DNA of 64,000 nt from Taeniopygia guttata (Eukaryota > Chordata > Aves > Passeriformes > Estrildidae): contig NC_133028.1 in NCBI RefSeq assembly GCF_048771995.1, positions 5,639,501 through 5,703,500 on the forward strand, written 5' to 3'. This document shows positions 2,194-62,500 of this stretch, piece by piece. The position numbers and the translations under genes are program-made. Below the pieces are notes generated by a model that saw only the letters and a list, made by a program, of their open reading frames with translations, did not search any database and was not told where the DNA came from. Each line of letters opens with the position of its first letter. Within the stretch, counting starts at the first letter, position 1.

Positions 2194-2245
2194 TTTATAG
2201 AATTGTTAAGGTTGGAAAAGTCTTCAAAGATCATTAAGTCTAGCC
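2194..2245 (-). repeat. CR1 LINE tail fragment
   Basis: The text resembles the avian CR1 3' end read on the opposite strand (ATAGAATTGTTAAGGTTGG, then AAAGATCATTAAGTCTAG). It is short and diverged. Confidence 0.5.
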
Positions 2246-3077: not shown

Positions 3078-3189
3078 TGTGTTCAAGCTCTTGTGCTGCT
3101 CCCAGGACTCATGAGTGAGACCTTGATTAAGCCACAGAGATTGGAAATATCAGCTTTTACAGGGCCTGGGGTAGGTGGGGAAATGTCGC

Positions 3190-7875: not shown

Positions 7876-7876
7876 C

Positions 7877-8012
7877 TAGAAGGTCTCCCTGGAGCCTTCT
7901 CCAAGCTGAACATCCCCAGCTCTCTCATCCTGTCTCCACAGCAGAGATGCTCAAGCCCTCTGAGCATCTTCATGGCCTCCTCTGGACTCACTCCAGCAGA
8001 TCCACATCCTTC
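7877..8012 (-). repeat. CR1 LINE fragment, minus strand
   Basis: Reads as the reverse complement of the CR1 3' region: TCTCCCTGGAGCCTTCTCC, then AAGCTGAACATCCCCAGCTC, then CATGGCCTCCTCTGGACTC. It covers about 135 bases of the same part of CR1 that is present in the copy at 2,565-3,077. Confidence 0.85.
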
Positions 8013-11000: not shown

Positions 11001-12849
11001 TAACAGAGCTGTTTCTCTGCAGTCTCATGAGATATATCCAGAGATCAGCATTTACCTTGTCTTAAATTATGTGTTTGGTACATTTCTGTCCCTTATGGGC
11101 ATTTTTTTAAACTCTTAAGAGGAACCCAGCAGGCCTGAGGTTCCACCAAGGCTTCTTTTTACATCACTTTGTTCAGGTTGAGTCAAAACTCTTTCTCAGT
11201 AGCACCTTAACCCCTAATTTTCAGAATTTAATCTGAATTAATGCCATGGGACCATGTCAGTGGAGCTAGTGACCCGCACACAACCTGACACAGAGGCAGC
11301 CAGGCTGGGCTAGAGCTGAAAAGCACCTCTTTGATCTGCCTAGCTGGAGCTGAGGGAAACCAGAGCACAGGGGATGGATGGGGGCTTCCACATGTACTGC
11401 ACAGAGTCCACTCTGCCCCAAAACAGAGAGGATAGGGACGAAAAACCAGAGAATAAATCCAGTTGTGTAATTCATTTGACTCAGAAGAACAGGCAGGTTT
11501 GGGTAGGATCTTTTTCTGGCATCTACTGAAACTGCTGGAAGAGCAGACAAATCCTGAAGCCCTGCCCCTAGGCTGCAACCCCGAGTGTGTCACAGCCACA
11601 GCAGCGGTGCTGCTGCTGTGAAAACCCTCCTTTGGTTTGTGGTGATTAACAAATGGCAGTGAAGGGGGACAAACTTCATCTTTTTCTAAACTTTATCTTT
11701 TTCTAAACTTTCCCAACCCACGTGCACACACGAGCTGGCTGTGCAGCTCGGTGCAGCTGCAGGGGATGCACGTGCAGGGCTCTGTGCTCAGCTCTAACCT
11801 GGGTGTGGGTGTAGGAACCCCTTTCCCTTTGGCCATCCCGTCATCCCAGCAGGTAATCCCTGCTGGGCCACACTCATGGTGCACGTGTGGGATTGGAGGG
11901 TGGATAAAGGGAATTTTCTGTGGTGTAAAGGGTAAAGGCTTTGTGTAAAAGGGCAATTATTCACTGGGAAATTACTTCTCATGAAACATGTGAGGTGTTA
12001 GCAAATAAGAAAGGTGCTTTAACCACAATAACCATGTGTTTTCTGTGAGGCTATGTGATGGGGAAACAGAAGGGAGCAGCAAAGCATAGAGGGGGCCAAG
12101 TAATGGCCCTTTCCCAGCCAGGTGGGAGGGGTGAAAGGAGAGTTCAACCTCCCATCCCAAGGGTGAAAGGGGTGTATTTGTGGTTCTTGGAGGGAAAAAA
12201 ATAGATTTCTGTGGGTTTAGACCATTATTTATTTATTTATATTTTCATGAGCTCAGTTGTAATGTATGGTTTTAAGTGGAAGTGTCCTTATGAAAGTTTT
12301 GTATTTTTTTTAAAACACCTTTACTGCGGCAACGTGGTATTTCTTTGCACTTCTCAGCTTGGCAATTGTGAAAAGCGGGTTTTAAATAATTTTATCAGTT
12401 TTCACTTGATTTCTGCTGGGTTAAAGGACTTCATCTATTTATTTCAACCTAAATTGCAAAGAGTTTTTTGTCTGTGTAACCCCCCACCCCCACCCCATTC
12501 TCAGAGTGCAGAACCTCTGAGATGAAATTGAACATGGCTTGGAAATGAGATGGTTAGTCCAATTCTTGAAATTGCACATGTTTTAAAATTGTTTGAGACC
12601 CCCTATGTGTGTTTTGAGGCTCTTTCTGTATTCAGAGGCAGGGAAGAGAGGCAGGTGGGGAGGGGCAGAGTGAGAGAGGGGAGTGGGTTTGTGTATCAGC
12701 TCAGAGCCCCATCCCACAGCCCGAGGCAGAAATCTTTGTGTTTGAGTGAATATTCTGCAGACAAAAAAGCAAGTGAGAGACCTGGGCTTATAAAAGAGGA
12801 AAACAACCCACATTTTTTTTTCCTTTTAACCAGGATTTCTCTTTCCCAG
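8013..12849. other. Gene-free stretch
   Basis: No exon or RNA gene could be supported. The only ordered sequence noted is a three-copy 18-base tandem repeat at 9,160-9,213 and a C-rich run near 12,481. Confidence 0.4.
9160..9213. repeat. 18-base tandem repeat, three copies
   Basis: Three adjoining units of CTGGTGTCCATCTCCAAG: the first has one change and the last has a changed end. No gene contains it. Confidence 0.85.
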
Positions 12850-13566
12850 TGTAGCGAAGGGTACAAGCCTGGGTAGTGAGTGAGAGGCAGGGATTGAACA
12901 GACAGTCCATTCTCTAACAGACAGATTTATTGAGTAATGAACAACTAAGAAAAGCAAAGCAAAGCAGTGATGTCCAGGCTCCAAAAACAAGATCTCACCA
13001 ATCCGCTGGCCAGACGTGCTGGGAGTCTTGGCAACCTGGAGGTGATGCTGCAAAGGTCCATGTGGATTCAGCTCCTTAAAGTCCATGGTGATTACAAGGT
13101 CTTCTGTTCTGCTCATCTTTTACCATCTCTCCAAATCTTTGAGTCTGTTCACACCCCCGCTGTCTTCAGTGGGTGTTTTCCAAGCACGTTTCCTTCTCTT
13201 TCCCTCCAAAGACAGTGTCCTCGGCTTTCCTTACCCCCATCTCCCTGGTTTAAGGACTCTTAAATCACACAAGAGCAGCTTCTTAACATCAGTATTTGGG
13301 GATGGGAAGTTCAAAAACAAGCTACTTATGCTAACTTTTGCTTCTTTACTATGAGGGTGATCAAACAATGAAACAGGTTTGCCCAGAGAAGTTGTGGAGT
13401 CTCCATCCATGGAGATGGTCAAAGCCCAGCTGAGCACAGTCCTGGGCAATCTGCTCTAGGTGACCCTCCTTGAACAGGTGGGTTCAGACTAAACGAAACC
13501 TCTCAAGAGGTCCCTTCCAACCTCAGCCATTCTGAGACTCATGCCATCTGCAGGCTGCTTGGCCTG
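12850..13566 (-). repeat. 3' LTR of the provirus, interrupted by CR1
   Basis: On the minus strand it ends in CTACA at 12,850, with an AATAAA poly(A) signal at about 12,925-12,935. The stretch 12,985-13,345 aligns with 22,062-22,413 in the 5' LTR (shared AAGATCTCACCAATCC and matching blocks around the TCTTTCCTTA segment). A CR1 copy occupies 13,350-13,551. The U3 start is inferred from the polypurine tract just outside. The flanking CCAG at 12,846-12,849 resembles CCAA beyond the 5' LTR, possibly a decayed 4-base target duplication. Confidence 0.65.
13350..13551 (+). repeat. CR1 LINE 3' end inserted at the 3' LTR
   Basis: Good match to the CR1 tail: GAGGGTGATCAAACAATG, GTTGTGGAGTCTCCATCC, a GTCCTGGGCAATCTGCTC block, and AGGTCCCTTCCAACCTCAGC at the end. 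It is in the opposite orientation to the provirus and must be younger than it. Confidence 0.9.
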
Positions 13567-13580
13567 TCCTCCCCTCCTGG
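13567..13580 (-). other. Candidate polypurine tract of the provirus
   Basis: On the minus strand the sequence reads AGGAGGGGAGGA, lying between the end of env and the 3' LTR, where retroviruses place the plus-strand primer. Confidence 0.45.
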
Positions 13581-13733
13581 ATGCCCTCTGGTGACAGAGA
13601 AGGCCATCCCTCTCATCAAGGTCTGGCATGGCGTGTGTCCCCACCGCTCAACGCCTACTGGGTTGCAGCCAACAGCGGAGCCAAAAGATCTTCTTGGTGG
13701 CAAACACAGAGGCCAACCCAGTCTTGCCCTTGA

Positions 13734-16358
13734 CTATTTCAGGAGGCTCTTGGCCAGCCCTGCTTCTTTCATCTGGTTATCAAAGCAGAGCTTCACCTGC
13801 CTCATCCGGTAACAAGTGGCTACCATGGCAAAGCACACACAGATTTGCATTAGCAGGATAACTACAATGGGGTGCAGCAGCGCGTTGAAAATGCCAGTGG
13901 CTGTGGGGGACCAGCCAAAAAAAGCCTCCCACCAGTGGTGTTCTCCCGCCCTCTTAATTCGTTCCATTACCTGTTTTATAACTTTACCATCATGGTGAAC
14001 CGTTATTAGGATCTTTTTAGCTTCGGCCTTGGCATTTTCTAGCAGCTGCTGCAAATTTGCATGCTCTAACATTTCTTTTACAAGTGATAAATCCATACCG
14101 ATGGGGGTGGGGGTTATACTACGATACAAGGTATAGTTTCTGATTAGCAACTGGCTAGTAAACACAGGTGGTTTATACACAAAATCACAGCCTCTAATAG
14201 TAGCTACATTGCAAGCACACATATTTGAGTCGCTAAACACAGTCTGGTTATAAGCTTCGTTAATCTGCACGTATTTACACGCTGTTCTGAAGCACACGCA
14301 GCCTTTCCCTACGTACACTAACATGGTTTTGTTACTGCTCTGGGGGTTGATCTCAAAGTGGCACACCCCTTCTTTGGTGTCAAAGCACACATCGCTCGCC
14401 TTAAGGGCATCATCCTCACATATGAATCCCAGCCCCCTCTCCAAAATGCAGGCGTCCAAATCTACCGTCTCCCACCTCCCCTCAGACACCCTGGCCCACA
14501 TGCGGTGGTCCAGGGGGTAGACCACAGAGCCATTTGTGTTTACTCCCAGGGCCACGATGGGGTAGACCTTTTCAATGCGAGCCTCCGCCACAGTGAGGAC
14601 GTGGGCAACGACCGCGTTGAGGGCCTGGTCGTGGGTGAAGTTGACCAGCCTCCACCAGGCTTGGAGCTGCCGCTCCTTCTCTGTGGCCGCGTCCCACACG
14701 ATCTTTCGGATCTCAGTGGGCAGGACGCCGTTGTCACCGTCTCTCAGGATACCTGCAACAACACTCTGCACCCACATCTGGGCCTGGATGCAGCTAAGAG
14801 CAAGCGAGACGTTACTTTGCTCCATGCCCAGGGCTCGCAACAGCACCTGATGGTCTTTCTCACTTATTTGTTCCCAGGTGGGCAGCACCTCTGACACAAG
14901 CCACTGCCCCATCCCAAGGCTGGACAGGGATGAATTCAGGGGCTTGAGGAGGTCCTGCACGCCCAAGGTGACAGTCTCCAGCTTGTTTGCCAAGACTTCA
15001 GCATCCATGCTGTTGAGGACTCCCAGGCCAGCAGCTCCTCCTCCCAGCGCTGTGGCCAGCAGGTCCCTCCTGGCCCGGGTGCCCTGGAGGGAGCGGCTGT
15101 GGAGCCATGCCAGCCAGCCAGTGTGCAGAGTAGACAGGAAGGGGGCACAGTGTGGTCTGACAGAGGAAATGTTAACAGTGGAGAGAGACAGCACCACCTT
15201 CTTTAGTGACCGGACAGGCCCTGTCAACAGCTCCTGGATGTGATTTTTCTTCACTACATAAGGACCTATTTTGGAAACAACAGGGGGCAAGACAGCAGTG
15301 ATGGTGAATTCTTTTTTAAATCCTTCAGGGCCTCCTATCCACCACTTTCCTCCAAGTTTGGGAGACATTTCTACGCTCAGGTTTCCTTGACACCACACCT
15401 GGAGGGTTATGATCAGGTGTGGGCAGCGTCCATAATCCTGATTATACCATGAAGTCTCTGCATCTAATTCAGATCTGTCAAGTGTTTTGGTCTCACAGAG
15501 GCAGGTCAGTGGAATGATCCACTTGCGGCTGTTGGGGGCTGTGACAGTCACAGTGGTGCCATTAATCTGCACTGGGTCAGCTACATTTTCTTGGGAGTAT
15601 TTGATTTCCACTTTTACCTGGTTGCCAATTTCAACATAACGGGGTGCATGCCAGGCCAAAAAATGGCACTTTGAGATCTTAATGGCAGCAAAGGAGGGTG
15701 CTGTGGTGCTGATCTTAAATTTAAAAGACAGCCCCACACTGTTTTGTGCCCAGAGGCAAACCACAAAGACTGGCTGGACCAAAGTAAAATTGAACCAGCA
15801 GTCCATGTTCTCCACAGCACAGATTTTGTTCTGATTCTTCTTAGTTTTTATTTCAGTGACAGAGATTTGAGTTACTCGCTGGTGAGTGGATCCGTTAATT
15901 ACCCTGCACCCCACCTTTATTTGCTGTCCCACCTTTCCCAGCAGCTGTGGAAGTCTGTTTGTGCTGTCCCAGCCCCACTCATTTTCCAAGTACACCTCTG
16001 ACCCATGCATAACCACTGTTGACAAATTTAAGCCTTTGTTAGAATTTAATCCCATGATCCCTGTGTGTTTTATGTATGCTTGGGACCAGGGCCAGTCAGT
16101 CCCAATTTTTGTGTGCCTCCTAAGCCTGTGCTGGGCTGTGGCCTGTGTGTCAAGGTGCCTTTTTAAGTGAGAATGAATGACATTTTTACCAAGATGCTGA
16201 TGGGTTGGTTGGACGCACTGGGTGCTCAGCACTATGCACATACCAGAAAGCAAAGTAAATCCTGCAATCACAAATTTGAAAGCATTTTCCCCACAGCACA
16301 AACAGGGCTGGTGATGCCACGAAGATCGCCCTTCCCGCTGGTCACAATCGCCTTCCAT
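13734..16358 (-). CDS. env: Retroviral envelope (env) frame of the provirus, 874 codons
   Basis: An uninterrupted 874-codon frame. Residues about 26-46 are hydrophobic (signal peptide or leader). Many N-x-S/T glycosylation sites follow. A furin-type site, TRARR, sits near residue 430, directly followed by a Gly/Ala-rich fusion-peptide-like stretch (ATALGGGAAGLGVLN). A C-terminal anchor lies near residues 830-850 with a short tail. This gives a surface half of about 430 residues and a transmembrane half of about 440, much longer than the roughly 200 residues of gammaretroviruses and nearer to epsilon- or spuma-type TM proteins. The start codon lies 10 bases after a good splice acceptor. The family is known to make env from a spliced mRNA. 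The frame looks whole. Confidence 0.85.
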   Translation of the reverse strand: MEGDCDQREGRSSWHHQPCLCCGENAFKFVIAGFTLLSGMCIVLSTQCVQPTHQHLGKNVIHSHLKRHLDTQATAQHRLRRHTKIGTDWPWSQAYIKHTGIMGLNSNKGLNLSTVVMHGSEVYLENEWGWDSTNRLPQLLGKVGQQIKVGCRVINGSTHQRVTQISVTEIKTKKNQNKICAVENMDCWFNFTLVQPVFVVCLWAQNSVGLSFKFKISTTAPSFAAIKISKCHFLAWHAPRYVEIGNQVKVEIKYSQENVADPVQINGTTVTVTAPNSRKWIIPLTCLCETKTLDRSELDAETSWYNQDYGRCPHLIITLQVWCQGNLSVEMSPKLGGKWWIGGPEGFKKEFTITAVLPPVVSKIGPYVVKKNHIQELLTGPVRSLKKVVLSLSTVNISSVRPHCAPFLSTLHTGWLAWLHSRSLQGTRARRDLLATALGGGAAGLGVLNSMDAEVLANKLETVTLGVQDLLKPLNSSLSSLGMGQWLVSEVLPTWEQISEKDHQVLLRALGMEQSNVSLALSCIQAQMWVQSVVAGILRDGDNGVLPTEIRKIVWDAATEKERQLQAWWRLVNFTHDQALNAVVAHVLTVAEARIEKVYPIVALGVNTNGSVVYPLDHRMWARVSEGRWETVDLDACILERGLGFICEDDALKASDVCFDTKEGVCHFEINPQSSNKTMLVYVGKGCVCFRTACKYVQINEAYNQTVFSDSNMCACNVATIRGCDFVYKPPVFTSQLLIRNYTLYRSITPTPIGMDLSLVKEMLEHANLQQLLENAKAEAKKILITVHHDGKVIKQVMERIKRAGEHHWWEAFFGWSPTATGIFNALLHPIVVILLMQICVCFAMVATCYRMRQVKLCFDNQMKEAGLAKSLLK

Positions 16359-16367
16359 TTTCCTTTA

Positions 16368-16380
16368 TCTGCAAAACATA
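16368..16380 (-). promoter_or_regulatory. Candidate env splice acceptor
   Basis: On the minus strand TATGTTTTGCAG ends at 16,369, just upstream of the env ATG at 16,358-16,356. Position and pyrimidine-rich context fit the subgenomic env message of retroviruses. Confidence 0.5.
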
Positions 16381-16404
16381 AGCAAGGCGGGCTCTCCAGC
16401 CCCG

Positions 16405-19400
16405 TTAGTTTCCCTTCCATGCTTTTAATTGTGAAGAATGGAACCATTTCTCCTGCCTTTTTGCCCCTTTTCTGATTTCTACCTGGTACACAGAGGGGCT
16501 GGCCTTGTTCACAACCCTAACAGGCCCCATCCACTGGGGTTCCAGCACCTGGTTCTTCTCCCTAACCCCTCGGTATATCACCAGGTCCCCTGTGTTCCAC
16601 TCCATGGGGCGCAGTAGCACTCCCAACTGCTTATCCATCTTAGGGATGCTGGTCTCCTGCACTGAGGCGAGCTGGTGGTAGGTGGCTGACACCGTCCTTA
16701 GCATGTCCTGGACCCACCTGTCCATCAGCACGCGGGGCTGCATTTCATCTGGGGGCTCCCCTCCTTGCCACCAGTGTTCCAGAAACTTCGGGTCCCTTGA
16801 GGGAGGAAATTTTGGGGGAGAAAGTGTTTGAGATGCCAGAGACCCCCTCAATGCCAGCAAGGTCAGTGGGAGCTTATGATCCCAGTCTTTCCTTTGCTGG
16901 TTCACAAGTTTCCTCAGTGCTGTCTTCAGTGGCTGGTTGGGCCCCTCTGCTGAGATTGGCTTCTGGAAATGCCCTGTGATGTGGAGCTTTTGCTTGATTC
17001 CCAGGGCCTGGCACACCCCTTTTGTGACTTCCCCAATGAAGCGTTGGCCGTGCTCTGAGTGAATCTCCTTTGGGATGCCCCACTGTGAGAAGATGTGCTC
17101 TACCAGGATCTTTGCAGTTGCACTGGCTGAGTTGTTTCGAGCTGGGAATGCTTCCACCCATTTGGTGAAGATATCACTGACCACTAGGCAGTACTTATTG
17201 CCTTGGGCTGTTTGGGACAGAGGGCCAATAAACTCCATCTGCAACTTGCTCCATGGCCCAGAAACCCTCTGGTAGCCCAGGATGGCTTTGGCTACTTTGG
17301 CATCAGGATTGTTGGCTGCACATGTCAGGCAGTTGCTGACATACCTCTCCACATCCTCCCTCATTTCGGGCCACCACCCAGCACCCTGCAGCCTCACCAT
17401 GGTCTTGTCTGTCCCCAGATGCCCCTGCTCATGAGCCAGGGCCACCAGCTCTGTCCGGACCAGTTCAGGCACCACCCAGACCGGGAAATCTGCCCCCTCC
17501 CTCCGTGCCAGGATCAGCCCTGAGACATCTTTCCACACCCTGCACCCTTTGTACTCCCTGCCCTGCGCTAACTCCCAGAGCCTGGGGTCCTGTGCCTGCA
17601 AGCCCACCAGATCCACACTCTCCCAGTGCCTGCTGGGAGCCACCAGCACTGGGCCACTCTCTGACATCTTGCTGGCTTTCCACAGCTGCCCTTCCTTAGC
17701 ACCTTGCTTGGCCTTGGCATCTGCCTCCTTGTTCCACTTGGCTTCCTCTGTTCCCTTCTTGTGGGCCTTGACCTTAATGATCTGTGCCGGGCACGCCCTC
17801 TGCTCTGCCAGCCTTGACAGGTACAGCAGCTTTTTGGCATAGGTGACAGGCTTGCCATCAGCAGACTGCATGTCCCTCTCCCTCCAGAGGGGCAGCCACT
17901 CCAGCGCCACACGCACCACCCAACCCGAGTCTGAAAATATGGCCAGTGGCTGGTCTGGCGGCGTGTTTTCCAGGGCAGCCATCACGGCCACCAGCTCGGC
18001 GGCGTGGATGGAGTGCGGCAGGCACTTCCCCTTCACCACCTCCCCCGTGCCCCTGTTGACAGCGGCATAGCCCGTGTAGGGCACCCCTAACTCGTGGTAG
18101 TTGGACCCATCTACGAACCACACAACGTACCCTCGTTCCTTGGCTTCCTCCAGGCTGAGGCTGCTCTCAAAGAGGGGTGCCCGCCGTGGCTTGGGGTCAG
18201 TGAGGGAGACTCCTGGCTCCTCCCCAACCCTCTCTGCACTGATTAGCACCCTGTAGGCACCAGGGGAGAGGTCCCTGGGGGCCTCCTTGTTGGTCAGCGC
18301 CAACGCCCAGTTGGCCATCCTGGGGCAGCACAGAGGACCTTCATCCCCCTTTCCCAACAAGAGGTACCTCACCGGGGTGCAGGAGGTCCTCAGCAACACT
18401 GGGGCCGACCCCACCAGGTACTCCCAGTGCTGCAGGGCCCAGGTTAGGGTTAAAACCTCCCTCTCGTAGTCACTGAACTGTTGCTCGGCTGGCGTCAGGA
18501 GACGCGAGGCGTGGGCAACAGGGAGCAGCTTGGCACTGTGCTGCTGGCCCAGGGTGGCCTGCAGCCCCATCCCCGTGCTGGCCAGCTGCAGAACGTAGGG
18601 TCTGTCCCCTTGAGGATGTGCCAGCATGGGGGCTCGTGCCACACTCTCCTTTAAGGTTTTCACTGCCTCATCCTGCTCTGGCCCCCATTCCCAGGGGGTG
18701 TTCTTTTTCAGGAGGTGGCAAAGTGGGGCTGCTTTCTCTGCATAGCCCTCAATGAACTCACGGTACAACCTCAGGAGGAACAGGAAGGACCTCAGGGTGG
18801 TGGTATCAGATGGTGCTGACATCTTCTGTATTAGCTCAACCCTCTGCTTTTCCAGTGAGCGCCCTTCCTCCCCCAGGGTCACCCCCACAAAGGAGACCTC
18901 CTTCCAGCACAGCTGGGCCTTTGTGGGGCTGATCCTGAAGCCTGTCTTCTGGACAGCCCCCAGCACCTCTGCCAGCACCTCCAGGTTCTTCTCCTTTGTC
19001 TGGGTGTGGATGAGGATGTCACCAGCACAGGACAGCACGCTCTCCCGGTGGCTGACCTGCTCCCACATCCTCACCACGCGGGCATGGCAGATAGCAGGGG
19101 CGCTGTGGAAACCCGGAGGGACTCTGGTGAAAGCAAATTGCCGTCCTCGAATCGTGAAGGCAAACTTGTGCCAGGAGTCAGGGTGCAAAGGGACAGCAAA
19201 TGATGGGCTGGTCAGGCTGAGCACCGAGAACCACTCGGAGCCCCGGGAGATGGCTGCCATGATGTTGGGATACCTGACCACCGTGGGGGTCTGCATTGGG
19301 GTGACTTGGTTCAGGGCACTGAAATCGACTGTCAGCTTCCACATTTTCCCATCAGCTTTCCTCAGGGGCCACACTGGGGCATTGTTGGTGCTCTGCTGCT

Positions 19401-20070
19401 CCACCAGCATGCCCTGGTCCAGCAAGGTTTTGACCGTGTCCCACAAGCTGTCCTCAGCCTCAGCCGGGTACCAGGGCTGAGCCTGAGGAGGCGGATCTGG
19501 CCCTTTGATTGACACAGCAGCATCAATCTGCCCACAGTCCAGCTTGCTCCTTGCCCAGACCTGGGGGAACTGCTCTGTGACCCGTTTCACCCGGGGCTCC
19601 CACTCCGGGTGGACCAGGATCTCAGGGGCTTTCACTGACATCACCCTGTGGCTTGCCGGGATGACGGGCAAATCAATTTGTGGGCAGTGTAGCAATGCTT
19701 GGTTTGCCAGGTCCACCACCACTCCCATCTTTGTCAGTGCAGAGATAGCTAAAACTCCTGGCTTTCCTTTCATTTCTATTTTCCCAAATTTTTCAGACCC
19801 TTTGGCAGCCCCAATTTCAAAGGGTATGGGCCCTGTGAACGGCACTGAGGATTTCTGGCCGTTCGGCCCTGTCAGTTCAATAATTTCAGAGGTTTGGAAG
19901 ATCCCGGCTCTGCCGGGGGCCATATTCAGAATTGAATAAGAGGCACCAGTATCAATTAACATCACTTGTCCAAGCACCCCTCCTCCAATAGTTGTATCAA
20001 CTATCAGGCGCCCCCACAAATCGGTCTTAATCGGTGCCACAAAAAGGGGCGATGCGGGTGCCTGGCAGCC
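16405..20070 (-). CDS. pol: Retroviral pro-pol frame (protease, RT, RNase H, integrase)
   Basis: The frame is open from just after the gag TAG to 16,405; the first Met is at 20,040 (1,211 codons from there). Counting from that Met: a retropepsin with LIDTGAS at about 28-34; an RT region from about 150 to 520; an RNase H domain starting with VWFVDGSN and ending with the KEADAKAK helix; an integrase zinc domain (HEQGHLGTDKT then CLTC) near 860-905; an integrase core after it; and a GPY/F-like module near the end (EPQWMGPVRVV). The domain order and GPY/F module are class I. Several active-site motifs of RT and integrase do not match the family, so these enzymes look inactive, although the long frame is unbroken. 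No repair or product is implied. Confidence 0.85.
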   Translation of the reverse strand, partial: GCQAPASPLFVAPIKTDLWGRLIVDTTIGGGVLGQVMLIDTGASYSILNMAPGRAGIFQTSEIIELTGPNGQKSSVPFTGPIPFEIGAAKGSEKFGKIEMKGKPGVLAISALTKMGVVVDLANQALLHCPQIDLPVIPASHRVMSVKAPEILVHPEWEPRVKRVTEQFPQVWARSKLDCGQIDAAVSIKGPDPPPQAQPWYPAEAEDSLWDTVKTLLDQGMLVEQQSTNNAPVWPLRKADGKMWKLTVDFSALNQVTPMQTPTVVRYPNIMAAISRGSEWFSVLSLTSPSFAVPLHPDSWHKFAFTIRGRQFAFTRVPPGFHSAPAICHARVVRMWEQVSHRESVLSCAGDILIHTQTKEKNLEVLAEVLGAVQKTGFRISPTKAQLCWKEVSFVGVTLGEEGRSLEKQRVELIQKMSAPSDTTTLRSFLFLLRLYREFIEGYAEKAAPLCHLLKKNTPWEWGPEQDEAVKTLKESVARAPMLAHPQGDRPYVLQLASTGMGLQATLGQQHSAKLLPVAHASRLLTPAEQQFSDYEREVLTLTWALQHWEYLVGSAPVLLRTSCTPVRYLLLGKGDEGPLCCPRMANWALALTNKEAPRDLSPGAYRVLISAERVGEEPGVSLTDPKPRRAPLFESSLSLEEAKERGYVVWFVDGSNYHELGVPYTGYAAVNRGTGEVVKGKCLPHSIHAAELVAVMAALENTPPDQPLAIFSDSGWVVRVALEWLPLWRERDMQSADGKPVTYAKKLLYLSRLAEQRACPAQIIKVKAHKKGTEEAKWNKEADAKAKQGAKEGQLWKASKMSESGPVLVAPSRHWESVDLVGLQAQDPRLWELAQGREYKGCRVWKDVSGLILARREGADFPVWVVPELVRTELVALAHEQGHLGTDKTMVRLQGAGWWPEMREDVERYVSNCLTCAANNPDAKVAKAILGYQRVSGPWSKLQMEFIGPLSQTAQGNKYCLVVSDIFTKWVEAFPARNNSASATAKILVEHIFSQWGIPKEIHSEHGQRFIGEVTKGVCQALGIKQKLHITGHFQKPISAEGPNQPLKTALRKLVNQQRKDWDHKLPLTLLALRGSLASQTLSPPKFPPSRDPKFLEHWWQGGEPPDEMQPRVLMDRWVQDMLRTVSATYHQLASVQETSIPKMDKQLGVLLRPMEWNTGDLVIYRGVREKNQVLEPQWMGPVRVVNKASPSVYQVEIRKGAKRQEKWFHSSQLKAWKGN

Positions 20071-20073
20071 CTA
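20071..20073 (-). promoter_or_regulatory. In-frame TAG between gag and pol (read-through type)
   Basis: Gag ends in ...CAG CAA TAG GGC and pol continues in the same frame. Gammaretroviruses and relatives use suppression of such a codon, helped by a downstream RNA structure, to make Gag-Pol. I did not fold the RNA. Confidence 0.6.
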
Positions 20074-21774
20074 TTGCTGAGCCTTAGCCCCCGGGTCAAT
20101 CAGGTGGGAGCTGCTGTTTTTTTTGGCCTCATGCAGGGCCAGTTTTTGGAAGAGCTCCGCATCCGGCAAGCCATCAATGTCCTCCTGTTTCTCATATTTT
20201 ATCAAGCGCTTCCTCAGCTCAGCCCGCCAAGGGTTAGACTTCTGAAACCTCATCCCTTGCTGGTTCTCCTTCCCCAACCCCCCCTTGCTATCAGGATCTT
20301 TTCTGTTGTCTCCTTGCATTTTTCTCATCCCTGCATTTTGGAAAGACATGCCCAAGGCTTTCCCTTTCTTCCCCCCCAGCATGTATCCCGGGAATGCCTG
20401 CTTTTGCAGCTCAAAATTCTGGTTCAGGATCTGCTCCAGCTCTGAGAGAGGCTTTTTGGCTGCATCCCCACCAGCAATCACCCGCAGTGGGGGTGTCAAC
20501 CCCACCACCAGTGGCTCCTTGAATTCAGGCCTGTCAAAATCAGGGGGGGACTCCTTTGAGCCAGGCAGCCCAGCCATCTGGTAGAGCATCCTTTTACGGT
20601 TAACATAGGCATCAGGCCTCTCCTCGGGGTTTTGCTTCTCCTGGTGGAAGAGCACTAAGGGGTTGACCTCTGGGAAGAACACCTTCAGCACAGCCAGCTG
20701 GACATCCCCGATATCCTGGACATTGCCCATCTGCACATCCCCTGGCAGTGACGCAAAATCATCTGGTTTCATGCACTTTCTCACAATGTCTATCAGGTCA
20801 CTCACAAAGTTGCCACTCTGGCACTTGGGCAGACGCTGGACCCTGGACAGCCAGTTAATTGCTGTCTCCTTTGTCAGCGGCCCCAGCATCTTCCCCACAG
20901 TCTTAATCTGCTCAGGGGTAAACCAGAGCACAGCCCTGTTGGTGTCTATGGGCTGCAGTGGGGCATGGCTGACTGGCTCTTCGTGGGGAACCTTTTTATC
21001 TTTGGAAGCCTCTACCTCCCCTACTTGCAGCTGGCACACCTCCTCCCGCAGAGGAGCATAGGGGGACGGCCTGGTGGGGCTGTTAGCACCCCACACATCA
21101 TCCTCATAATCGTAGTGGGGTGGGTGCAGGTCCAGGGAGTCCTCCCCCTCCCCATTCCCCATCGGGGTCCTCTTGCCTTTAATGGCAGCCACAATGCCCC
21201 TTGACACCCCCAGCTCTGCCTCCAGCTCCTGGATCTTGGCATGGCACACCTTGTGATCGGGGCCAGTGCCCCGGTCCCGCTGGACGTCCTGCAGGACCGC
21301 CCGCACCGCGCTCTGCGCATCGTGGGTCTCCCCAATCCACTTGCCAACCTCCTTCTTCAGCTCCTCCGTTTTCAGCTTCTCATAGCCCAGCTTGCTTTCC
21401 AGCCGGGTGATCTCCACCGCGCTCCGCAGAGAGTCCCCACACAAGCCCTGCACCTCCGCCCGCAGGTTGTCCACCTGGATTTTGAGCTCCTCCTTGGCCT
21501 GCTCCAAGGTCTGCACATTCTCAAGAGCCTCCTTCAGCAGTTTGGACAACTCCCTGCCTACCATCAGCAAACCCTGCAAAGCCGCTCGCTTCTTACACTT
21601 GTTAGTGGGTTTGGGCTTTTTGTTCTCCTCGGACCAGCTCTCCCACTGCTGGCACAGCTGCTGGTACGCATCCGGGCCCTGGAAAGACCCCGCTGACCAA
21701 ATTGGGGGGAGACACTTCTGGAGCACAAACTGCTCCAGCTTCCAGCTGCTAACGATGTCGCTCATCATAGCCAA
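20071..21774 (-). CDS. gag: Retroviral gag frame of the provirus, 567 codons
   Basis: An uninterrupted 567-codon frame at the 5' end of the element. Residues about 65-170 are Glu/Lys/Leu-rich and look like a long coiled coil. A proline-rich linker follows (near 215-240), then a capsid-like section with a major-homology-like stretch around FDRPEFKEPLVVG, and a basic, Cys-poor C-terminal tail. It lies directly 5' of pol in the same frame. Assignment rests on position and the capsid-like section; Gag sequences drift fast, so the finer domains are inferred. The long N-terminal coiled coil is unusual for a gammaretrovirus. The frame looks whole. Confidence 0.75.
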   Translation of the reverse strand: MAMMSDIVSSWKLEQFVLQKCLPPIWSAGSFQGPDAYQQLCQQWESWSEENKKPKPTNKCKKRAALQGLLMVGRELSKLLKEALENVQTLEQAKEELKIQVDNLRAEVQGLCGDSLRSAVEITRLESKLGYEKLKTEELKKEVGKWIGETHDAQSAVRAVLQDVQRDRGTGPDHKVCHAKIQELEAELGVSRGIVAAIKGKRTPMGNGEGEDSLDLHPPHYDYEDDVWGANSPTRPSPYAPLREEVCQLQVGEVEASKDKKVPHEEPVSHAPLQPIDTNRAVLWFTPEQIKTVGKMLGPLTKETAINWLSRVQRLPKCQSGNFVSDLIDIVRKCMKPDDFASLPGDVQMGNVQDIGDVQLAVLKVFFPEVNPLVLFHQEKQNPEERPDAYVNRKRMLYQMAGLPGSKESPPDFDRPEFKEPLVVGLTPPLRVIAGGDAAKKPLSELEQILNQNFELQKQAFPGYMLGGKKGKALGMSFQNAGMRKMQGDNRKDPDSKGGLGKENQQGMRFQKSNPWRAELRKRLIKYEKQEDIDGLPDAELFQKLALHEAKKNSSSHLIDPGAKAQQ

Positions 21775-22060
21775 GGGGACAAGTATCTGAGACGGCTCCG
21801 TCTCAGGGCGAAACTACCATAACACACCAGCACTGACAGCCCCTTCAACCCCTCCACAGAGCGAGGCTGCAACCCCACAGCCCACCCTTCCGAAAATCCC
21901 CCGGGGGGACACCGAGCCTGGGCACAAGGGAAGGGAAGGTGGGAACAGGAGGCCGCAGCCGAGCCGGCAGCTGCCGCAAGCCACCGGCTCCCGGGAGGGA
22001 ACGGGGAAGGGATGCGGGAGCGGGTGAGGCAAAGGAGAGATGGAGCAGGACCCCAGTAAT
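21775..22060 (-). other. GC-rich leader of the provirus
   Basis: The stretch between the recognisable LTR and gag is much more GC- and CpG-rich than its surroundings. It may contain the R/U5 end, the primer-binding site and the packaging leader, but the inner LTR border and a matching tRNA primer site could not be fixed. A 133-codon open frame covers it and is probably chance. Confidence 0.4.
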
Positions 22061-22061
22061 A

Positions 22062-22415
22062 AGATCTCACCAATCCTCGGCTGAACGTTCCGGCAGTCCC
22101 AGGAGTTTGGAGATGGTCTCTGCAGAGGTCCAGAAGATCCAGCACCTTTAAGGTAAAGGTGGCCACGAAGTCTCTGCCTGGTGATTTTTATAGCCATGGC
22201 AAGTCTTTGTTTGGGGCTGATGACACCTGTGTTTACTTCCCTGGCGGCTTTTCCTCCTCCGTGTGCTGCCTTCCCAAGGACACTTTCCTTGTCTTTCCTT
22301 ATCCTCTTCAACACTGATTAGGGAAGCTGAGATCACACAGTAGCACCTGCACTGCCCCTTATCTGTTTGGGGAGGGCCAGGATTAGGCAAGGCTCACACT
22401 AAACTTCTGCTTGCA
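22062..22415 (-). repeat. 5' LTR (recognisable U3/R part) of the provirus
   Basis: Aligns along its length with the 3' LTR at 12,985-13,345. On the minus strand it starts TGCAAGCAG at 22,415, carries a clear TATA box (TATAAAAAT, 22,194-22,186) and has GGATTGGTGAGATC at about 22,075-22,062, which is also a plausible splice donor (TTG/GTGAGA). The TATA box is better kept here than in the 3' LTR. Confidence 0.65.
22186..22194 (-). promoter_or_regulatory. TATA box of the proviral 5' LTR
   Basis: TATAAAAAT on the minus strand, placed so that a start site would fall near 22,160, ahead of the leader and gag. Retained although the LTR pair is old. Confidence 0.5.
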
Positions 22416-25897: not shown

Positions 25898-28800
25898 GTA
25901 AGAGGGACACATCTCTTAAGGGCTGAGGGCACCTAAAATCCTGCTGGAGCATCTTCTCCACCACACTCCAGCAGCTGGATGATGGAAGATTAAATATGCC
26001 ATCACAGTAGAGATCTACAGGATATTATTATCTATTTCCGATGATTTTGGATCACGCTGTTAATGACATGGTTTAGGTTTTGTTCAGCCCTGAACTGGTC
26101 AGAAAGTGGGACCAGTTGATTGCTGTGGGTCCCTTCCAACTGAAATAGTCTATTCTGTTCTATTCTGTTCTGTTCTATTCTATTCTATTCTATTCTATTC
26201 TATTCTATTCTATTCTATTCTACTCTATTCTATATTCTATTAATATTTCAATACACAGTGCTAGAGACACCACAGAGTTTTTACTCCTCAGTGCAGATGG
26301 GCTGTAGGAAGCTGCTAAAGGAGAGGTTAAAACAGCTCCTCTCTCCACTGCCTGTGTAACACAAATATGACAAACATCCCAAATTTCCTAAATCATCCAA
26401 AGACTGAGTACTTCCCAAAGGCCACAGCTGGAATTGGTGTGTTTTAAAACCATTCTGCCTTAGAGGTTCTGATATCCTATAGATCTGTGAGGTGGGGAGC
26501 CCACTGAGAAAACCTCAATAAATGTGAGTTTGCTTTGCCCATGCAAAAAGAAAAGGAATAATTTTTAAGTTTCTGCAGGCTGGTCTGGTCAAGCACCATG
26601 ATGCCCCATGGTGCCCCTGAATATACACCAGGAAAGGGAACAGACAGGTTTGGGGGTTGAAAGTATGACTGAGGAGGAGTTTTCTTCTCTGTCTCCATCC
26701 CAGCTCACTCCTGGCTTGACCACTGGCACTGAGCTGGGGTCTTCCAGAATCTCTTCTTATCTTTTCTGAATTACATTACAGGGTCTCCAACAGGTCAAGG
26801 ATAAATTTTTCATGGAGAGTTGTGTTTCCCATACCAGCAGAGCCACACCTCAGGACACTCAAGGAGACCCTGAAGCCCCCATGTGCCATGGCCACACACA
26901 TTTCATCCCCTAAAAAACCACACAGGTGTTTGCCAGGACAAAATCTAAGAGAACTATGCTCTAAAACGTTAAAATTATGTATTTTAATAATAAGGAGACA
27001 GTAATGTTGTCACAGAGCCAGAGGATGTGGGGAAATGCTGCAGATTCTGTGCAACACCAAAATGTTGGCATTGCAGTGTTGGTAACAGGGTTGCATGAGG
27101 CTGAAAAAGCTGCTGTGAGCAACTCCAGGATTTAAAGGAAAAAGGAACATTTTAAAGTAAAAAAAGACAAGAAATATGTATTATTGAGCTTTTTGCACAG
27201 CTTTAAAACACGCCTGGGAAAGAGATGGGGGAAGCAGGAGTATCCTTATCTCCAGAGGGCTGTTTTTCCTCTCGGGCTCAGAGTATCTGCAGCTTTGCAG
27301 GACTGTTTGCTGAGCAGCAAGGATCACAAGTTACCTGTTATCCTTTCCACAAGGACACATCCTCGCTCTCACAGACACTCCTCACATCTGCCTGGGCCAA
27401 ACAAGACTTAGATAATTTCCACAAAAGCTGCAAAGCCCAAACAGGGCGATGCGATGCCAAACCAAAGCTTTGAACCCCACCGCTGCCCCTCACTCCCTCT
27501 CCTTCCCCATGTCTCAAAATTCCTTTGAAAAATAGTATTGTCTGAAAACCACTATCAAATTGGCTCATTTTGAAATATTTTGCACATTTTTTTGGTCTCC
27601 TTTTCTGCCCCTGAAATGTCTATAAATGTTGTATCAGTTGGAAGAAAAAGTTGGCAAATCGGTTAAGAGGTATAAAAAATTTGTTGAAAAAGGGGTAAAA
27701 TATCTGAAAAATGAGAAAGGTAAGGAGGGCAGGAGAGGGGCATTCACAGGAGCAGGCAGGGATGCTCTTCCCTGTACGTACAGCCCCAAGAACACCCTCA
27801 AAACCATCCCTCCATCTCTCTTCCTGCCAGTAGCCTCCTTCTTAGATGAGTGTTTACAGAGAAAAGGCTGCCTGTATAATTTGGTTTGGTCAAAACAATA
27901 GCTGGGGAACCCAAAGAGACCTCTGAGGGAATTTGGGAGCATCCTGATAAAAATGCTCCTGTTTCTCACATGTGACCCCTCTGGTCTGTGTGTCTATGTG
28001 GTTTTATTAAGCCCATAAAGAAAATCTGTACTTTGCACGAAAGAAAAAAAAGTTGAATTAAAATAATAACTGTATATTTCTCTATTTCCTTAGGCTTTTA
28101 TACAACTCTACTTTTAACCCAAATTCCAAGGCATATTCTAACCCAAACTAACAATAAAACTGAAATCCTCTGTGAGCTGAAGAAGGAGCACACCGGGGTG
28201 TACTGGTACCGCTGGAGCCAGGAGAGGCAACATTTCGAGTTCTTGTTATTTTCCAACACACTGGGCAAAGCCACATACGGCCCAAATGTGAAGCAGGACA
28301 AGTTTAGTGTCCATGAGGCGAGGTCCCACAGCTCCTACAGCCTGCACATCAGCCACCTGCATCCCTCAGACAGCGGCACCTACTACTGCTCCATCTCCCA
28401 GTCCTCCCAGCTCCTCCTGGGCAGCGGGACACAGCTCACAGTGGGTAAGCAGCACCCTCGGGCTTCCAAAATGGGCCACCAGCACCTTGTGAGCAGGTCC
28501 CCTGGGAAATGGGGTGATTAGTTTTGGTAGATTCTTCCCAGTTTTGAGTTGCAAGGTTGGGGGTCTGGGTTTTTTTTCTATGAGACAGAAGGAATCTGTA
28601 ATATATATATGCAGGAAATACAGAAAGTAGCTAAAATTTAAATCAGCTTCTGTGGTAGTCCTTTTGCCATCAGCAGGTGCTCTGCTGTGGGCATGCCTTG
28701 GGCACAGCATTGCTCCTCGTGCTCTGGGATTTCCATGTGAAGAGCTGGTATTGCCATGCCCTGTGTTTTTCTCATTCCCTGCTGTGCTTTGGATGAGAGG

Positions 28801-31874: not shown

Positions 31875-31918
31875 ATCCCAGTAAATCCCAGTAAATCCCA
31901 GTAAATCCCAGTAAATCC
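31871..31918. repeat. 10-base tandem repeat over the CD8B stop codon
   Basis: GTAAATCCCA is repeated four times and followed by a partial fifth unit. The first unit contains the TAA that ends CD8B. Confidence 0.95.
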
Positions 31919-44541: not shown

Positions 44542-47500
44542 GTGAGTACGGACACGGGGGTGTGCAGCCCCTTCACCGGGAGGGGCAAGGAAAACCCTTC
44601 CACTGAATCCAAGGCATTGGGTTCAGTAACAAAGGGAGTAAAAAGCAAACCAAAACTGCTGACTTTGAGGTGGGCTCAGTAATTTTGGGAGGAAGGGTGG
44701 CATCACCTCAGGCAGCAAAGGGCAGACAGAGTTGTGGCTGCAGCACCACCTGCACTGGGAAGGGAGATTGATCCAATGAGTGCTCCTGGAGGGGAGGGAG
44801 AAGGGTGGAAAAAAATGAGGCTTTGCAAGAAGTGCAAGGGGAGTCACTTCAGAGAAGCTGGGAAGGTGTAACGTTCCTGAGAAGGCTCTGGAAGAGCAGC
44901 ACCCCTCTTTCAAGCCCAGGTGGCTGATTGCTGAGCACTCTCCATGAACCATCCCAGCAAGGACCCCAAGAAAACCTTCACATCATCCAGACAGTGAGGG
45001 CTTCCCTTTCCATTTGTATTTCCAGCCCATGGACAGGGAGGGAGGGAGGTTTCCTCAGAGAACCCTCTGACTCTTCCCAAGTGGTTCCAGCAAGGATTTC
45101 TCTCCTGCAGGCTGCCCTGGGATTTATGGCCAGCCACTTCAAATAAAGGTCAGTTCTCCCAAGGACATCACTCAGCTGCGGGTGGGACAGAGGCTGGAGC
45201 TGGAGTGCCAGACTTACAAGAGGTATGGGGCATCCTGGATCCGCCAGGACAAGCATGGGACCCTTCACTTCATTGTCTTCATCAGTTCCGTGTCCCGGGC
45301 CAGCTTTGGGGAGAATCAGGGAACAGCACATCGCTTTGAGACGAGCAAACACAACACGGTCTATCGCTTGGTAGTGAAATCTTTCTCACCGGAGGATGAG
45401 GGGACCTATTTCTGCGTGATGAGTTTGAACCAAATGCTGCACTTCAGCCCTGGACAGCGTGCCTTCCTGCCAGGTCAGCAACACCTTCACCCAGCCTCAC
45501 TCAGCCCTGCCAAAATGCCCAGCACCTCCTGCCCGTGTCCTTTTTAACCAGCCATCCCTCCCACTAATCCCATTTCCCTGCTTGCTTGCCCAAGGCATCC
45601 TGTGAACAACCCACTGGTGCTCCTGCCAGAGCCTCCCTGCTTCCCACCTCTCCTCCTGGCACAGCTCCTGCCCAAAGCAAACATGGTTGGGCAGACCCAG
45701 CATCATCTCCCCATCCCCACTTCCCCACCCCACCCACGCCCCTGAAGGGAGAAGATTAAAGCAAAGTCCACCACCACCCCCTCCTCCCTCAGCACACAAA
45801 GGTCCCAAAAGTACCACCAAGCTCAGGGGGCTCAGGCTTTGTGAGGTTGGTGTCAGAAAGTGAGAAACAAGCAGGCTGCAGCTCCCTCTTGGCTCTTGGG
45901 AGACCCTTCTTTGGGGAGTCCCCATCCAAACTTGGCTCTATGAGCTAAACTCAGGAGCACCTGTGCCCTGGCAGGGCTAAGAGAGCAGAAGGGCAGGAGA
46001 GATCTGTTTTATTGTGTTCCCTGCATGCTGAATTCATCCATTTCACTTGTAGTCACCACCACAGTGGCACCCACCACATGTGGACCCACCTCCAAGCGTG
46101 GCACCACTGAGGAGCCCAACCTCAAGAGTCCAGATCCAGGTAACCTGAATGGAGGGAGGGAGAGGGGAAGGGCTGGACTCTGCCCCATTGATGCCAAGGG
46201 GGAGCCTGCAGGAATTTTGGGATTGGGAGGGAGAGAGAAGATCCACGGAGCTTCTTTATCACAGATGCAAGGATTAAATTCCAATATTTCATTCAATTTA
46301 AGAAAGGCTAAATATGACATAAAAAGCACTAGCATGCCTGGGCACACCAGGAATATGGGGAGGGGGGTAGAGCCATGGGGGCTGGGGCTGCTTTTAGCCT
46401 CAGCAGGAAACAGGAGAAAACTTTTGGCCACATATCCTCCCTCAAGTCGCCAGGAAAATGCTGACACCAGAACTGTCTGTAACATCGGCCATGAGCACTT
46501 GGTGGACATTCCATCTTCTCTCTTCCTGCAGAGGGAAGAATGCAGAAAGATCTGAATTTCCTCTGTCACATCTTCATCTGGGTCCCCTTGGCAGGTGCCT
46601 GCCTCCTGCTCCTCATCGCCCTGGTGATCACCGCCGTGCTGTGCCAACGTAAGGCTCTCCACAACCCTCTCTAGATCCATCTCTGGCCTGAGAGCACAGC
46701 CCTGCCCTCGGGGAGAGGGATGTTCTGGCAGTTTGGGGAGGCTGAAAAATCAGGACACAGCCAGCGCAAGACACTGTTAAAATCAGTGTCTGTGTTTTAA
46801 TCCTCATCGGTAGGATTAGGATGAGAAAGAATTATCAACTTCGAATCGCACAGCAAAATTATTTATGTTGGAAAAAAGTTTCAAGGAAGAAAAATATATT
46901 AGAAAGAGACCGTGCTTAGTCTATAACTATCTTGGCTCATAAATGGGTGTGTCAGAGGTTGAAGCCCCAGAGCCTGAAACATTCTGACCTAGCAGAGTAA
47001 ATATGCTCCAGAAAATCCTGAGGGTCCAGCAGCAGCTCAAGCTGGAAGCAGATGAGAAACTTCATTACCTTACGATCAGGGGAAAGCACTCAGCTGCAGT
47101 TAATTTCTGCAGCAGTTTCCAAGACCTTCAGGATGGATTTTTACCTTAGTAAAACTTTTACCTGGGCATTTTATTTTGCTGAGTCTTCCCCAAAGTACCA
47201 ACACAGAGACTAAAACGGGGAAGAGCAGGGTTACCTTGGGTGCATGCCACTGGCATCACTGCCACTCACCTGCTGCAGAAATCATTGCTGCTGAGGGATT
47301 TTCAGCAACGTGCCAAACTCACTGGGGACAGCAAACAGAAATAATTTACCCTCAGTGTCCCCAGGCTGACCCTGCTGCTGCTACTCACCTTAAAGATTTA
47401 TTCATGAAAATATTTAAGTGGATGACTGGGGTAACATGAGCTGCAGCACCACTCCCTGGCATGGATTTCCTCAAACCCAGGCTGGGTTTATCCATTATTA

Positions 47501-59513: not shown

Positions 59514-62500
59514 CTGGGGACAAAGACAATGGGTTAGAATTGGGGCAATGTGTGACAACAGAGCATTAAAGGTATTGAGTTTTCCCCCTGTAGCAGGAAA
59601 ACAACTGCATTCTTAAGCCACAACACTTTACTTGGCTCCATTAAAAGTCACCTTTAGCTGAGAGAGAACTTACCATGCTTCTCCTTGTAGTTATAGTCTC
59701 TCACCTTTCACCCACAAGCCCCTGAATTATGAGATTATCATAAAGAGCAATTTCTCTGTAGTTATTATTTCTACTTCTTGTTTTGCTTGTTGTATTTTGG
59801 AATCATAGAATGGTTTGGGTTGGAAGGGACCTTAAGGACCATCCCATTCCAACTATGCTGCCATGGACAGGGACACCTTCCACTAGACCAGGTTGCCTAG
59901 AACCCCATCCAGCCTGGCCTTGCAGTAATTTTAAATCAGCTGGAAGCTTTCACTGTGGTTTCCTCAATATCCAGTTCATTTTAGTGTCTGATTCCCAAAA
60001 TGCTGTGATTTTCTAACCCACTTTGATCAGCTCCTGCAGGCTATGACTGAAGGGTCACCCTGGTCTCCCTGTTGAGGTCTCTCATACAATCCCACCTACT
60101 TAAAATATTTTTTCTTTTTGAAGAAATTGATTCTATTTTGAAGCATTGATCCATTTTGCCCCCCATCTCCTACATTTGGGCATTTTACCTTCTCCCCCCA
60201 TGTACCTCTCCAGAGTTAATATTGTCAGAGCTGTGCTGTCAGTGAAAGTGATCAATAAAAGCACCAGGAATGAGTGATCAGGGACAGGAATGATGCAGCA
60301 GCAAGTTTACAGCTTAAAATGGCTAAAGTCACCCAAAGTCACCCACAAAGGTATCCCTTAAGGCTTTTCTAACAGGGCACAGAATGCAAACATCACTTGA
60401 CATTTTCATTCACAGCCTCACTTATTTTCACACTGGATTTCCCAGAATGACTTAGAGCTCTAAATTAAGCTGACAGCCTGCACAGAAGCTGTATATATTC
60501 AATCCAAATAACCACTGTTCTTCCTCAAGAAAATCTGCAGAGATTTCTCTCTCCCATTTCCTGCTCCCTCAAAAGCCTGAAGCACCCCACAGATATCTAA
60601 GGAGGACTATTTCCACAGTTATAATTCCCCTCTTTGCTCAATTACTAAGCCATATTTCCCCCAGAGGTTTAATTTTATTTTTCAAGAGATTTTTCATGCA
60701 TTACTAACCTTGCTCCCAAGGAAAAATTGTGTGTGTAAAGCCTTCCAGTTTGAATTTAAGACAACACAATGGTGGCAACAACGTGAAAAATTACTCTGCT
60801 TGCTGCATTCCTTCACGCAAGCTCACTTTGAACAATATCAAGAGGGTTTACTATGCTTTTCTCCAATGCATCAACCCAGATTATGCAGCTTTCAAACCAT
60901 TCTCCAAGATTAACAAGCTTCCACCAATCACATAATTATGGACTCAGTTTACCCAAAACACAGTATTCTAGTCTTAAGATGAGTCCTTGTCTATGTGTTG
61001 TTTGAAATAAAAGGATGGTACTTACTTGCTGCCATTAAACATTTTATTCAAAGCATCTCTGGATATAATATGACCACAGACTAATTTCATAGGTGGATTA
61101 TTATCTGTTGTTTGCTGACGAAGAATGGGACAGGCAAATATTGAATGATACCAGCACTTTTTACCGAGGTCCACTTCAATCTGTGAAAGAAATTAACATA
61201 AGAAGTTATCTTGGGAAATTACATTTCCAGATAATACCCCTTTAGGTCATGGCAGTCACTTAACAGATTTCACAATTCAGCTGTGAAAGCAACAAAATCC
61301 ATTGTGTGGATGTCTGACAATTTCCCAGCCAAAAAATACTTAATTGTGATCTCAAAATGGTGATTTATGTTGGGGATACAGAGTAACAGCAAAACAGAAT
61401 ATTCTGCCAAGGGACAAGTGCAAATTCTATTGCAGATCCACACCCTGGTAGGAAAACTGAGCTGGCTTCCATCAAGACTTTCTGGAAATCACTGGCTAGG
61501 AAATAAAAACTAGTTTACAGATTTCATTTTAGGGGAAAATTTAAAAAGAGAAAAACCCTTGCATTGACTATATTCATGTTCTACAGTTTCCTGAAAGATT
61601 CTGCCAATACCTTCATGTCTTCTGAATAATGAAGTATATCACAATCGCTAATTTTCAGTACCAACACAAAAGATACTTGTGAAGCACAACTCCTGCCATG
61701 AATACAAAATTATTTCAAAAAGGAACATAAAACAGAGAACAGGTCTGTGACTTCAGTAATTGAGAACTGCAAAAATCACACCAGATCTCACCCAGCTCTG
61801 AGCAGTCTGCTGTTCAAAGGTTTAACTTTCAACAAAACCTGAAAATCTGACCTTTACATGCTACTTAATGTGTCTTTGCACAATGAAAATAAGGTTTCCC
61901 ACGCTCATACTGCCTTAGCAGAACACACTAGAGACCCTACAGTTTAGAAAATAGAAGGAGACACACGTGTACTATTAACTGATTTGCATCAGACAGCAAT
62001 CTTTTCCCAAATGCTCCCCTAGCTATTCATTCCTGGCTGGACAGCAAGGCAGGAATCTCTCAAACTCAGAGGTTACACTCTCAGCATTAAAAACCCAGCT
62101 GGGAGAAAACTCAGCACTTATCCTTACTCTATAAATGAACCTCTTCCAGCTGCAGTCGAAGAGGCTAACTCAGTTCATGCCCAGTTTGCACTAAATAAGT
62201 TTCCTTTCCAAATCAGGAGCAGGTCACTGGAGAGCTGCACATGCTCAGCAAGAGCTATAAAGGGAAACTGGGGTTTCATAACAACTGAATTCATCTCAAC
62301 TGATATAAATGAGATGTGCTGGAAGCATAATGCACTGAATCCCAACTCCTGTGTCCCCAGATGCTGCACTAATTCTTTCATCTCCTGTCTGCCTGATAAA
62401 GAGCCGGTGCAAAGCAAGCCCTGGACTGAGCTCAAGCCTAGCTAGGAGAAGTGAATGTGTCTCTGTGGGATTCATTTTCTTTCCAGTTATACAGAAACAT

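Follow-up and report, generated by a model that had tools for sequence, protein, structure and literature searches.

The question raised by this locus is how a provirus whose LTRs look old can still carry all of its reading frames open. In the window, by which we mean the whole analysed stretch of 64,000 nucleotides of the zebra finch (Taeniopygia guttata) genome, the ORF listing shows on the minus strand, at about 12.9-22.4 kb, a provirus with three uninterrupted frames, gag, pol and env/ORF3. In the initial annotation it was taken for a retained domesticated provirus, perhaps a relative of chicken Ovex1. Based on the analysis below, the provirus is, with high confidence, the songbird orthologue of Ovex1 itself (chicken LOC422925/LOC422926), kept by purifying selection on its proteins, the confidence applying to the identity and the domestication together. 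It is noted that the Ovex1 locus, its open frames, its dead RT and integrase, its dN/dS and its co-option were already published (2009, 2016), and the provirus is not a new candidate. The additions made here are incremental: the kiwi ORF3, the ostrich pol, a survey of residues, LTR remnants traced further than before and, in ORF3, an insert and a leader that carries a second furin-type site.

All features of the provirus lie on the minus strand. The gag ORF (20071-21774) has 567 aa counted from a TTG and 565 from the ATG at 21768, and gag taken from its ATGATG start (20071..21768, 565 codons) has the amber TAG at its end (20071-20073). Behind the amber codon and in the same frame as gag stands pro-pol (16405..20070), which comprises protease, RT, RNase H and integrase and in which the pol ORF (16405-20040, 1211 aa) is open; env/ORF3 (13734..16358, 874 codons) is open as well. 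The initial annotation had described just this, uninterrupted gag, pol of more than 1,200 codons and env of 874 codons. Pfam recognizes RT, RNase H-type, RNase H, integrase zinc-binding and integrase core domains on pol, gives only sub-threshold matches on gag and gives zero matches on ORF3. Around the frames lie a 5' LTR remnant (22029..22412) with a TATA box TATAAA (22187..22192; the 3' copy reads TGGTAAAA at 13118-13125) and a 3' LTR remnant (12959..13343) with the polyadenylation signal AATAAA just past it (12926..12931). Within the LTR repeat lies the block GGTGAGA (22065..22071, with a second copy at 12993-12999 in the 3' LTR), which is a predicted splice donor, the chicken donor likewise lying inside the repeat. 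An upstream ATG in the leader (21818..21820) and an acceptor AG (16369..16370), 10 nt ahead of the ORF3 ATG, complete the layout. Note also that three polyA-type hexamers occur on the coding strand near the ORF3 start (16045-16050, 15916-15921 and 15847-15852), and that chicken Ovex1 has four internal ones in a similar part (PMC2717909).

The identity with Ovex1 is seen most directly in ORF3, which in a protein search is 82% identical to Gallus LOC422926 over 100% of its length, LOC422926 and LOC422925 being the chicken Ovex1 locus, located between CD8 and SMYD1 (PMC2717909). The same work gives 565 residues for chicken Gag, 873 residues for chicken ORF3 and 874 for that of the zebra finch, and reports for chicken Ovex1 an upstream AUG, a double AUG, a donor inside the repeat and an ORF3 beginning 11 bp past the acceptor. 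In the window the promoter, donor, acceptor, upstream AUG, double ATG and polyA signal are all at places matching those published for chicken. Moreover, the window gag carries the NLS KKPKPTNKCKKR, identical to the chicken's, and its major homology region matches with one K-to-R change; no CxxC of a zinc finger was found in it. The window is thus like the chicken and zebra finch Ovex1 of PMC2717909 in the CD8 side, the three-frame layout, the frame lengths, the motifs, the enzyme losses, the splice and polyA positions and the degenerate repeats.

The neighbourhood agrees on one side. A V-set exon in the host flank (28057..28518, plus strand; Pfam V-set 4e-19) is CD8-like, with three CD8 beta chains among the 60 best of its 5465 PDB matches, the top matches being antibodies. 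A second V-set exon (45071..45544, plus strand; Pfam V-set 1.1e-8) is a candidate second CD8 chain, and a RING exon (61025..61153, minus strand) matches RMND5A in the PDB at 3e-26. Judged from the V-set domains, the weak CD8 beta matches and the position, Ovex1 adjoins CD8 here. The placement in the initial annotation, between the CD8/RMND5A cluster and a left neighbour, therefore stands on the CD8/RMND5A side and finds no counterpart on the left, where neither SMYD1 nor any other gene gave a PDB match in six frames of positions 1-12850, i.e. in the 12.8 kb left of the provirus; SMYD1 may lie past the window. The host flank also contains open stretches of 245-302 codons at 31416-32321 (minus), 46012-46749 (minus) and 47982-48716 (plus), with no Pfam match at E up to 0.01.

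We now consider the age of the insertion and the survival of its frames. The initial annotation had judged the LTRs by eye to be about two-thirds alike, and hence old. Aligning 22412-22029 with 13343-12959 gives 258 identities, 108 mismatches and 37 gap letters, corresponding to 70.5% identity, for remnants of about 385 bp each with a spacing of about 9070 bp; by contrast, for chicken Ovex1 a repeat of 120-122 bp was described, without a U3 or U5 repeat (PMC2717909). In a control, 2 of 273 random pairs of window segments, presumably dispersed repeats, outscored the LTR pair under each of two scorings, so that the alignment score alone is no proof of an LTR pair. The LTR reading is supported by the colinearity of the two copies around the ORFs, by the donor block in both, by the TATA box of the 5' copy and by the polyA signal past the 3' copy. 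With the caveat of the two better-scoring random pairs, the flanks behave as the true LTR pair that the initial annotation had presupposed.

Setting the neutral divergence to half the LTR distance, or 0.18-0.19 substitutions per site, with the LTRs assumed neutral and indels left out, we expect 58-63 (about 61) nonsense changes over the 2652 codons, while none is observed (Poisson P 6e-26 to 3e-28). The earlier argument that neutral decay should have broken the frames is thus confirmed in numbers. This bears on the proposal that the provirus is a neutral survivor, being either a recent insertion with LTRs that merely look old or one that stayed open by luck. Recombination or alignment error can indeed inflate an LTR distance, and the random pairs scoring above the LTR pair speak for the same proposal. 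However, the missing stops are evidently inconsistent with it, and long relatives exist in chicken, kiwi and ostrich, the ostrich with the same enzyme changes. Neutral survival is close to refuted and scarcely credible to us.

For the retained provirus kept by purifying selection, which we prefer, the dN/dS should be far from the value near 1 that the initial annotation had set against its own proposal. The published chicken-finch values are 0.08 for gag, 0.18 for pol and 0.16 for ORF3 (PMC2717909), and 207 sites of the ORF3 alignment were reported to be under purifying selection (PMC5006616). We also compared amino-acid change with neutral change as calibrated by the LTRs, setting the bird-bird neutral divergence equal to the LTR distance; the crude ratio is 0.06-0.27 in seven comparisons. 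It is rough and not a dN/dS, and the recent split from the blue tit makes the value for that bird too low. In gag, where all seven matches were used, 393 of 564 scored columns are invariant across the 8 sequences.

Pol is not evenly constrained. In the window, the catalytic triads that an active endogenous retrovirus has in RT and integrase are not intact: the first catalytic Asp of RT is Ser, YxDD has become CxGD, and the integrase has E-x59-E-x35-E instead of D-D-E. The drift of these active sites, claimed in the initial annotation, is therefore real, and it agrees with PMC2717909, where the Ovex1 RT lacks two of the three Asp and the zebra finch integrase is E-x59-E-x35-E, with Asp at the second integrase residue in chicken and Glu in finch and window. 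What that annotation did not mention is that the residues of RNase H, of protease and of the integrase zinc finger have not drifted, so that in pro-pol a changed RT and a changed integrase core stand beside a kept RNase H and a kept integrase zinc finger.

To place these changes we used 19 of the 89 pol matches (P0008-P0026), counting 16 close relatives (P0008-P0023), six from named birds and ten with no species name; a chimeric pigeon model (P0024) and two distant rows (P0025-P0026) were shown and not counted. Across the window and the 16 relatives, the first RT Asp is Ser in 16 of 17 and Cys in one. In YxDD, Gly replaces the first Asp in 16 rows and Ser does so in the ostrich; one row has Glu for the second Asp, which the other 16 keep. 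In the integrase, all 17 have Glu for the first Asp; at the second position 15 have Asp and two have Glu, and at the third 16 have Glu and one has Asp. The integrase zinc ligands, by contrast, are retained in 17 of 17, as are the first D, the E and the fourth D of RNase H, whose third acidic residue is present in all but one of the 17 rows. All 14 rows that extend to the protease Asp retain it, one of them having DIGA instead of DTGA. RT sites are more variable than those of RNase H (P 0.009), of the integrase core (P 0.017) and of the integrase zinc domain (P 0.003), though not clearly more than protease sites (P 0.08), in five uncorrected tests that treat sites as independent and ignore relatedness. 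Variability is higher still than in RT at the C-terminus of the integrase and in the segment linking RT to RNase H. The Pfam scores follow the same pattern, RVT_1 reaching 46 bits in the window against 114 in P0025 and RNase H 60 against 59. P0025, which is 31% identical over 99% of pol and has the same domain order, retains the RT Asp, YVDD and the integrase D-D-E, unlike Ovex1. These residues argue against the view of an apparently intact RT that may still mobilize other repeats (PMC5006616) and agree with PMC2717909; with RT and integrase short of their usual catalytic residues, Ovex1 should not copy itself. We also observe that at pol residue 996, the second integrase Asp, Glu occurs in the window, as reported for the zebra finch (PMC2717909), and in the antbird Willisornis, while P0008, the closest pol relative (92%), has Asp, possibly a repeated change at one site.

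The common enzyme changes also bear on whether birds inherited one insertion or a single virus lineage entered different bird genomes independently. In favour of separate integrations, the flanks are known here from the window's bird only and the palaeognath matches come without locus context. Against it, all 16 close pol relatives share the RT and integrase changes of the window, and it would thus be required that a dead virus reinserted; moreover, the chicken and finch copies are syntenic (PMC2717909). We regard separate integrations as very improbable.

A single inherited insertion should be present in related birds, and the initial annotation had made its case dependent on this. Matching by protein rather than by locus, with at least one of the three proteins per bird and mostly one, we find long open relatives in songbirds, suboscines, woodpecker, hummingbird, cranes, stork, hornbill, chicken, kiwi and ostrich. 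The closest are songbirds (Cyanistes caeruleus gag 95%, Molothrus aeneus ORF3 96%, Haemorhous mexicanus ORF3 95%), and the long relatives span 78-96% identity, including the kiwi Apteryx mantelli, with an ORF3 of 874 residues 82% identical over its full length, and the ostrich Struthio camelus, with pol 81% identical. The insertion is most likely older than the deepest split of living birds. In 2009 the palaeognaths were still to be checked (PMC2717909), and in the accessible parts of the literature naming Ovex1 we found no earlier report from them. ORF3 homologues were reported in turkey, duck, 18 Neoaves and four reptiles (PMC5006616); among our 47 ORF3 matches none bears a reptile name. CrocERV37-39, which cluster with Ovex1 and resemble the tuatara SpeV (PMC4299795), are reptile ERV groups.

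Some gene models need comment. Those of the pigeon Patagioenas fasciata (P0024) and the wood stork Mycteria americana (P0121) are chimeric or shortened, through model artefact or real decay, and since they are broken or mis-modelled, the Ovex1 frames may be dispensable in some birds. The antbird model P0013 continues from pol into ORF3. In five birds Ovex1 pol is automatically named "NYNRIN-like" (P0010, P0017, P0021-P0023), and the orthologue is therefore hidden from searches by name. NYNRIN proper is mammalian, and Ovex1, in contrast to it, retains a whole provirus layout.

As for copy number, divergent ORF3 protein duplicates were reported in three birds, two of them songbirds (PMC5006616), an Ovex1-labelled LTR at chicken chr3:54,480,182 is reported to be present in junglefowl and missing from green junglefowl (PMC10164170), and Ovex1 was placed on other chromosomes (PMC4992247), all of which count against a strictly single copy. 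The chr3 LTR is unexpected for an ancient provirus that exists in one copy, on chromosome 4.

ORF3 itself has a hydrophobic stretch at about 25-49, R-L-R-R at 78-81, R-A-R-R at 428-431 and a hydrophobic segment at about 818-852. We aligned 22 of the 47 matches, leaving out 14 near-identical rows of 839 aa (P0106, P0107, P0109-P0120), for which P0105 stands in, as well as P0121, P0126, P0131, P0136-P0142 and P0024. Over residues about 355-832, ORF3 shares 47-54% identity with multicopy bird ERV envelopes (P0124-P0135); where ORF3 has its insert (219-352), these envelopes have a short linker. In the leader (1-87), the hydrophobic stretch with R-x-R-R at 78-81 occurs in all 12 Ovex1-type rows reaching it. 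Of the ten aligned ERV envelopes, four extend to the N-terminus, and the leader of these four is short and lacks R-x-R-R. At the SU/TM-type site (428-431), all 13 Ovex1-type rows have R-x-[RK]-R, as do eight of the ten ERV envelopes; in ORF3, 443 residues follow this site. A gammaretroviral TM subunit is far shorter. Moreover, the gammaretroviral hallmark CX6CC is absent from ORF3, which has only CLCC at residue 19, and no retroviral Env family is among the nine Pfam families matched by any of the 23 members at E up to 1. Judged from these sequence features, ORF3 argues against the gammaretroviral env label of PMC5006616. In a BFVD structure search with the ORF3 model, walleye epsilonretrovirus Envs rank second and third (E 3e-7 and 3e-6) after an unnamed protein, and lispivirus and filovirus glycoproteins rank 5-7, with TM-scores of 0.08-0.15 and a poor model (pLDDT 44.7), so that the epsilonretroviral likeness may serve as a lead. 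An envelope relative, P0131, occurs in a gene model, possibly artefactual, with an RT only 31% identical to that of Ovex1, which fits the proposal of 2009 that pol and ORF3 do not share one history (PMC2717909).

We propose that Ovex1 is expressed as follows. The 5' LTR remnant with its TATA box would act as promoter. The full-length RNA would give Gag and, by amber read-through, Gag-Pro-Pol, and an RNA spliced from 22071 to 16369, placed by its match to the chicken cDNAs, would give ORF3, predicted to be a glycoprotein-like membrane protein with two furin-type sites. RT and integrase, lacking the usual catalytic residues, would provide no self-copying. In the accessible Ovex1 literature neither a demonstrated function nor protein-level evidence for the products was found; PMC2717909 favours an ovarian role and PMC5006616 receptor interference.

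For the function, we favour retained interference or particle proteins, which is unproven. Tentatively, Gag, the protease-containing Gag-Pol and ORF3 may be interference proteins against related retroviruses, acting jointly or apart, foremost in the ovary. In a narrower proposal, which we find still less probable, ORF3/Env alone is used by the host in receptor interference, with gag and pol carried along as passengers in the shared transcript. PMC5006616 argues for it from the selection on ORF3, the wide expression and the duplicates in three birds, and env relatives at several loci in single birds (wood stork, king penguin) imply that viruses existed to interfere with. However, gag is the most constrained frame in print and the passengers should have broken, while pol is open in the window and the 16 close relatives with its domains unequally constrained. 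The published constraint extends to each of the three frames, so that Env alone cannot be the full account.

No more than possible, to the same degree as interference by Gag and/or Env, is that birds retain the proteins for a non-viral task in gonad development, in the granulosa lineage, with Gag acting for instance as a nuclear coiled-coil regulator. This is consistent with the left-biased gonadal expression and with the NLS plus leucine zipper in Gag (PMC2717909), the NLS being identical in the window and six of seven gag relatives, where the seventh gene model has no such stretch. However, such a role leaves the kept protease and RNase H residues and the envelope-type cleavage site unexplained, and RNA across the locus was reported in 20 adult tissues, ten with full transcript models, with ovary highest (PMC5006616).

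Returning to retained viral proteins, the whole virion programme may have been domesticated, which we hold to be unlikely, more so than any of the functions above: non-infectious particles would be made in ovarian somatic cells from Gag, a working protease and RNase H and a processed envelope-type glycoprotein, the loss of polymerase and integrase dating to no later than the common ancestor of living birds. It is noted that these functional readings overlap.

Host genes that descend from a single retroviral protein are familiar. In our judgement, a whole provirus whose three frames have been under selection from before the crown birds diverged would be exceptional. The pattern of residues, with RT and integrase changed and protease and RNase H nearly always kept, raises the questions of whether the protease cuts Gag, whether the RNase H cuts RNA:DNA hybrids and whether particles are made in the ovary.
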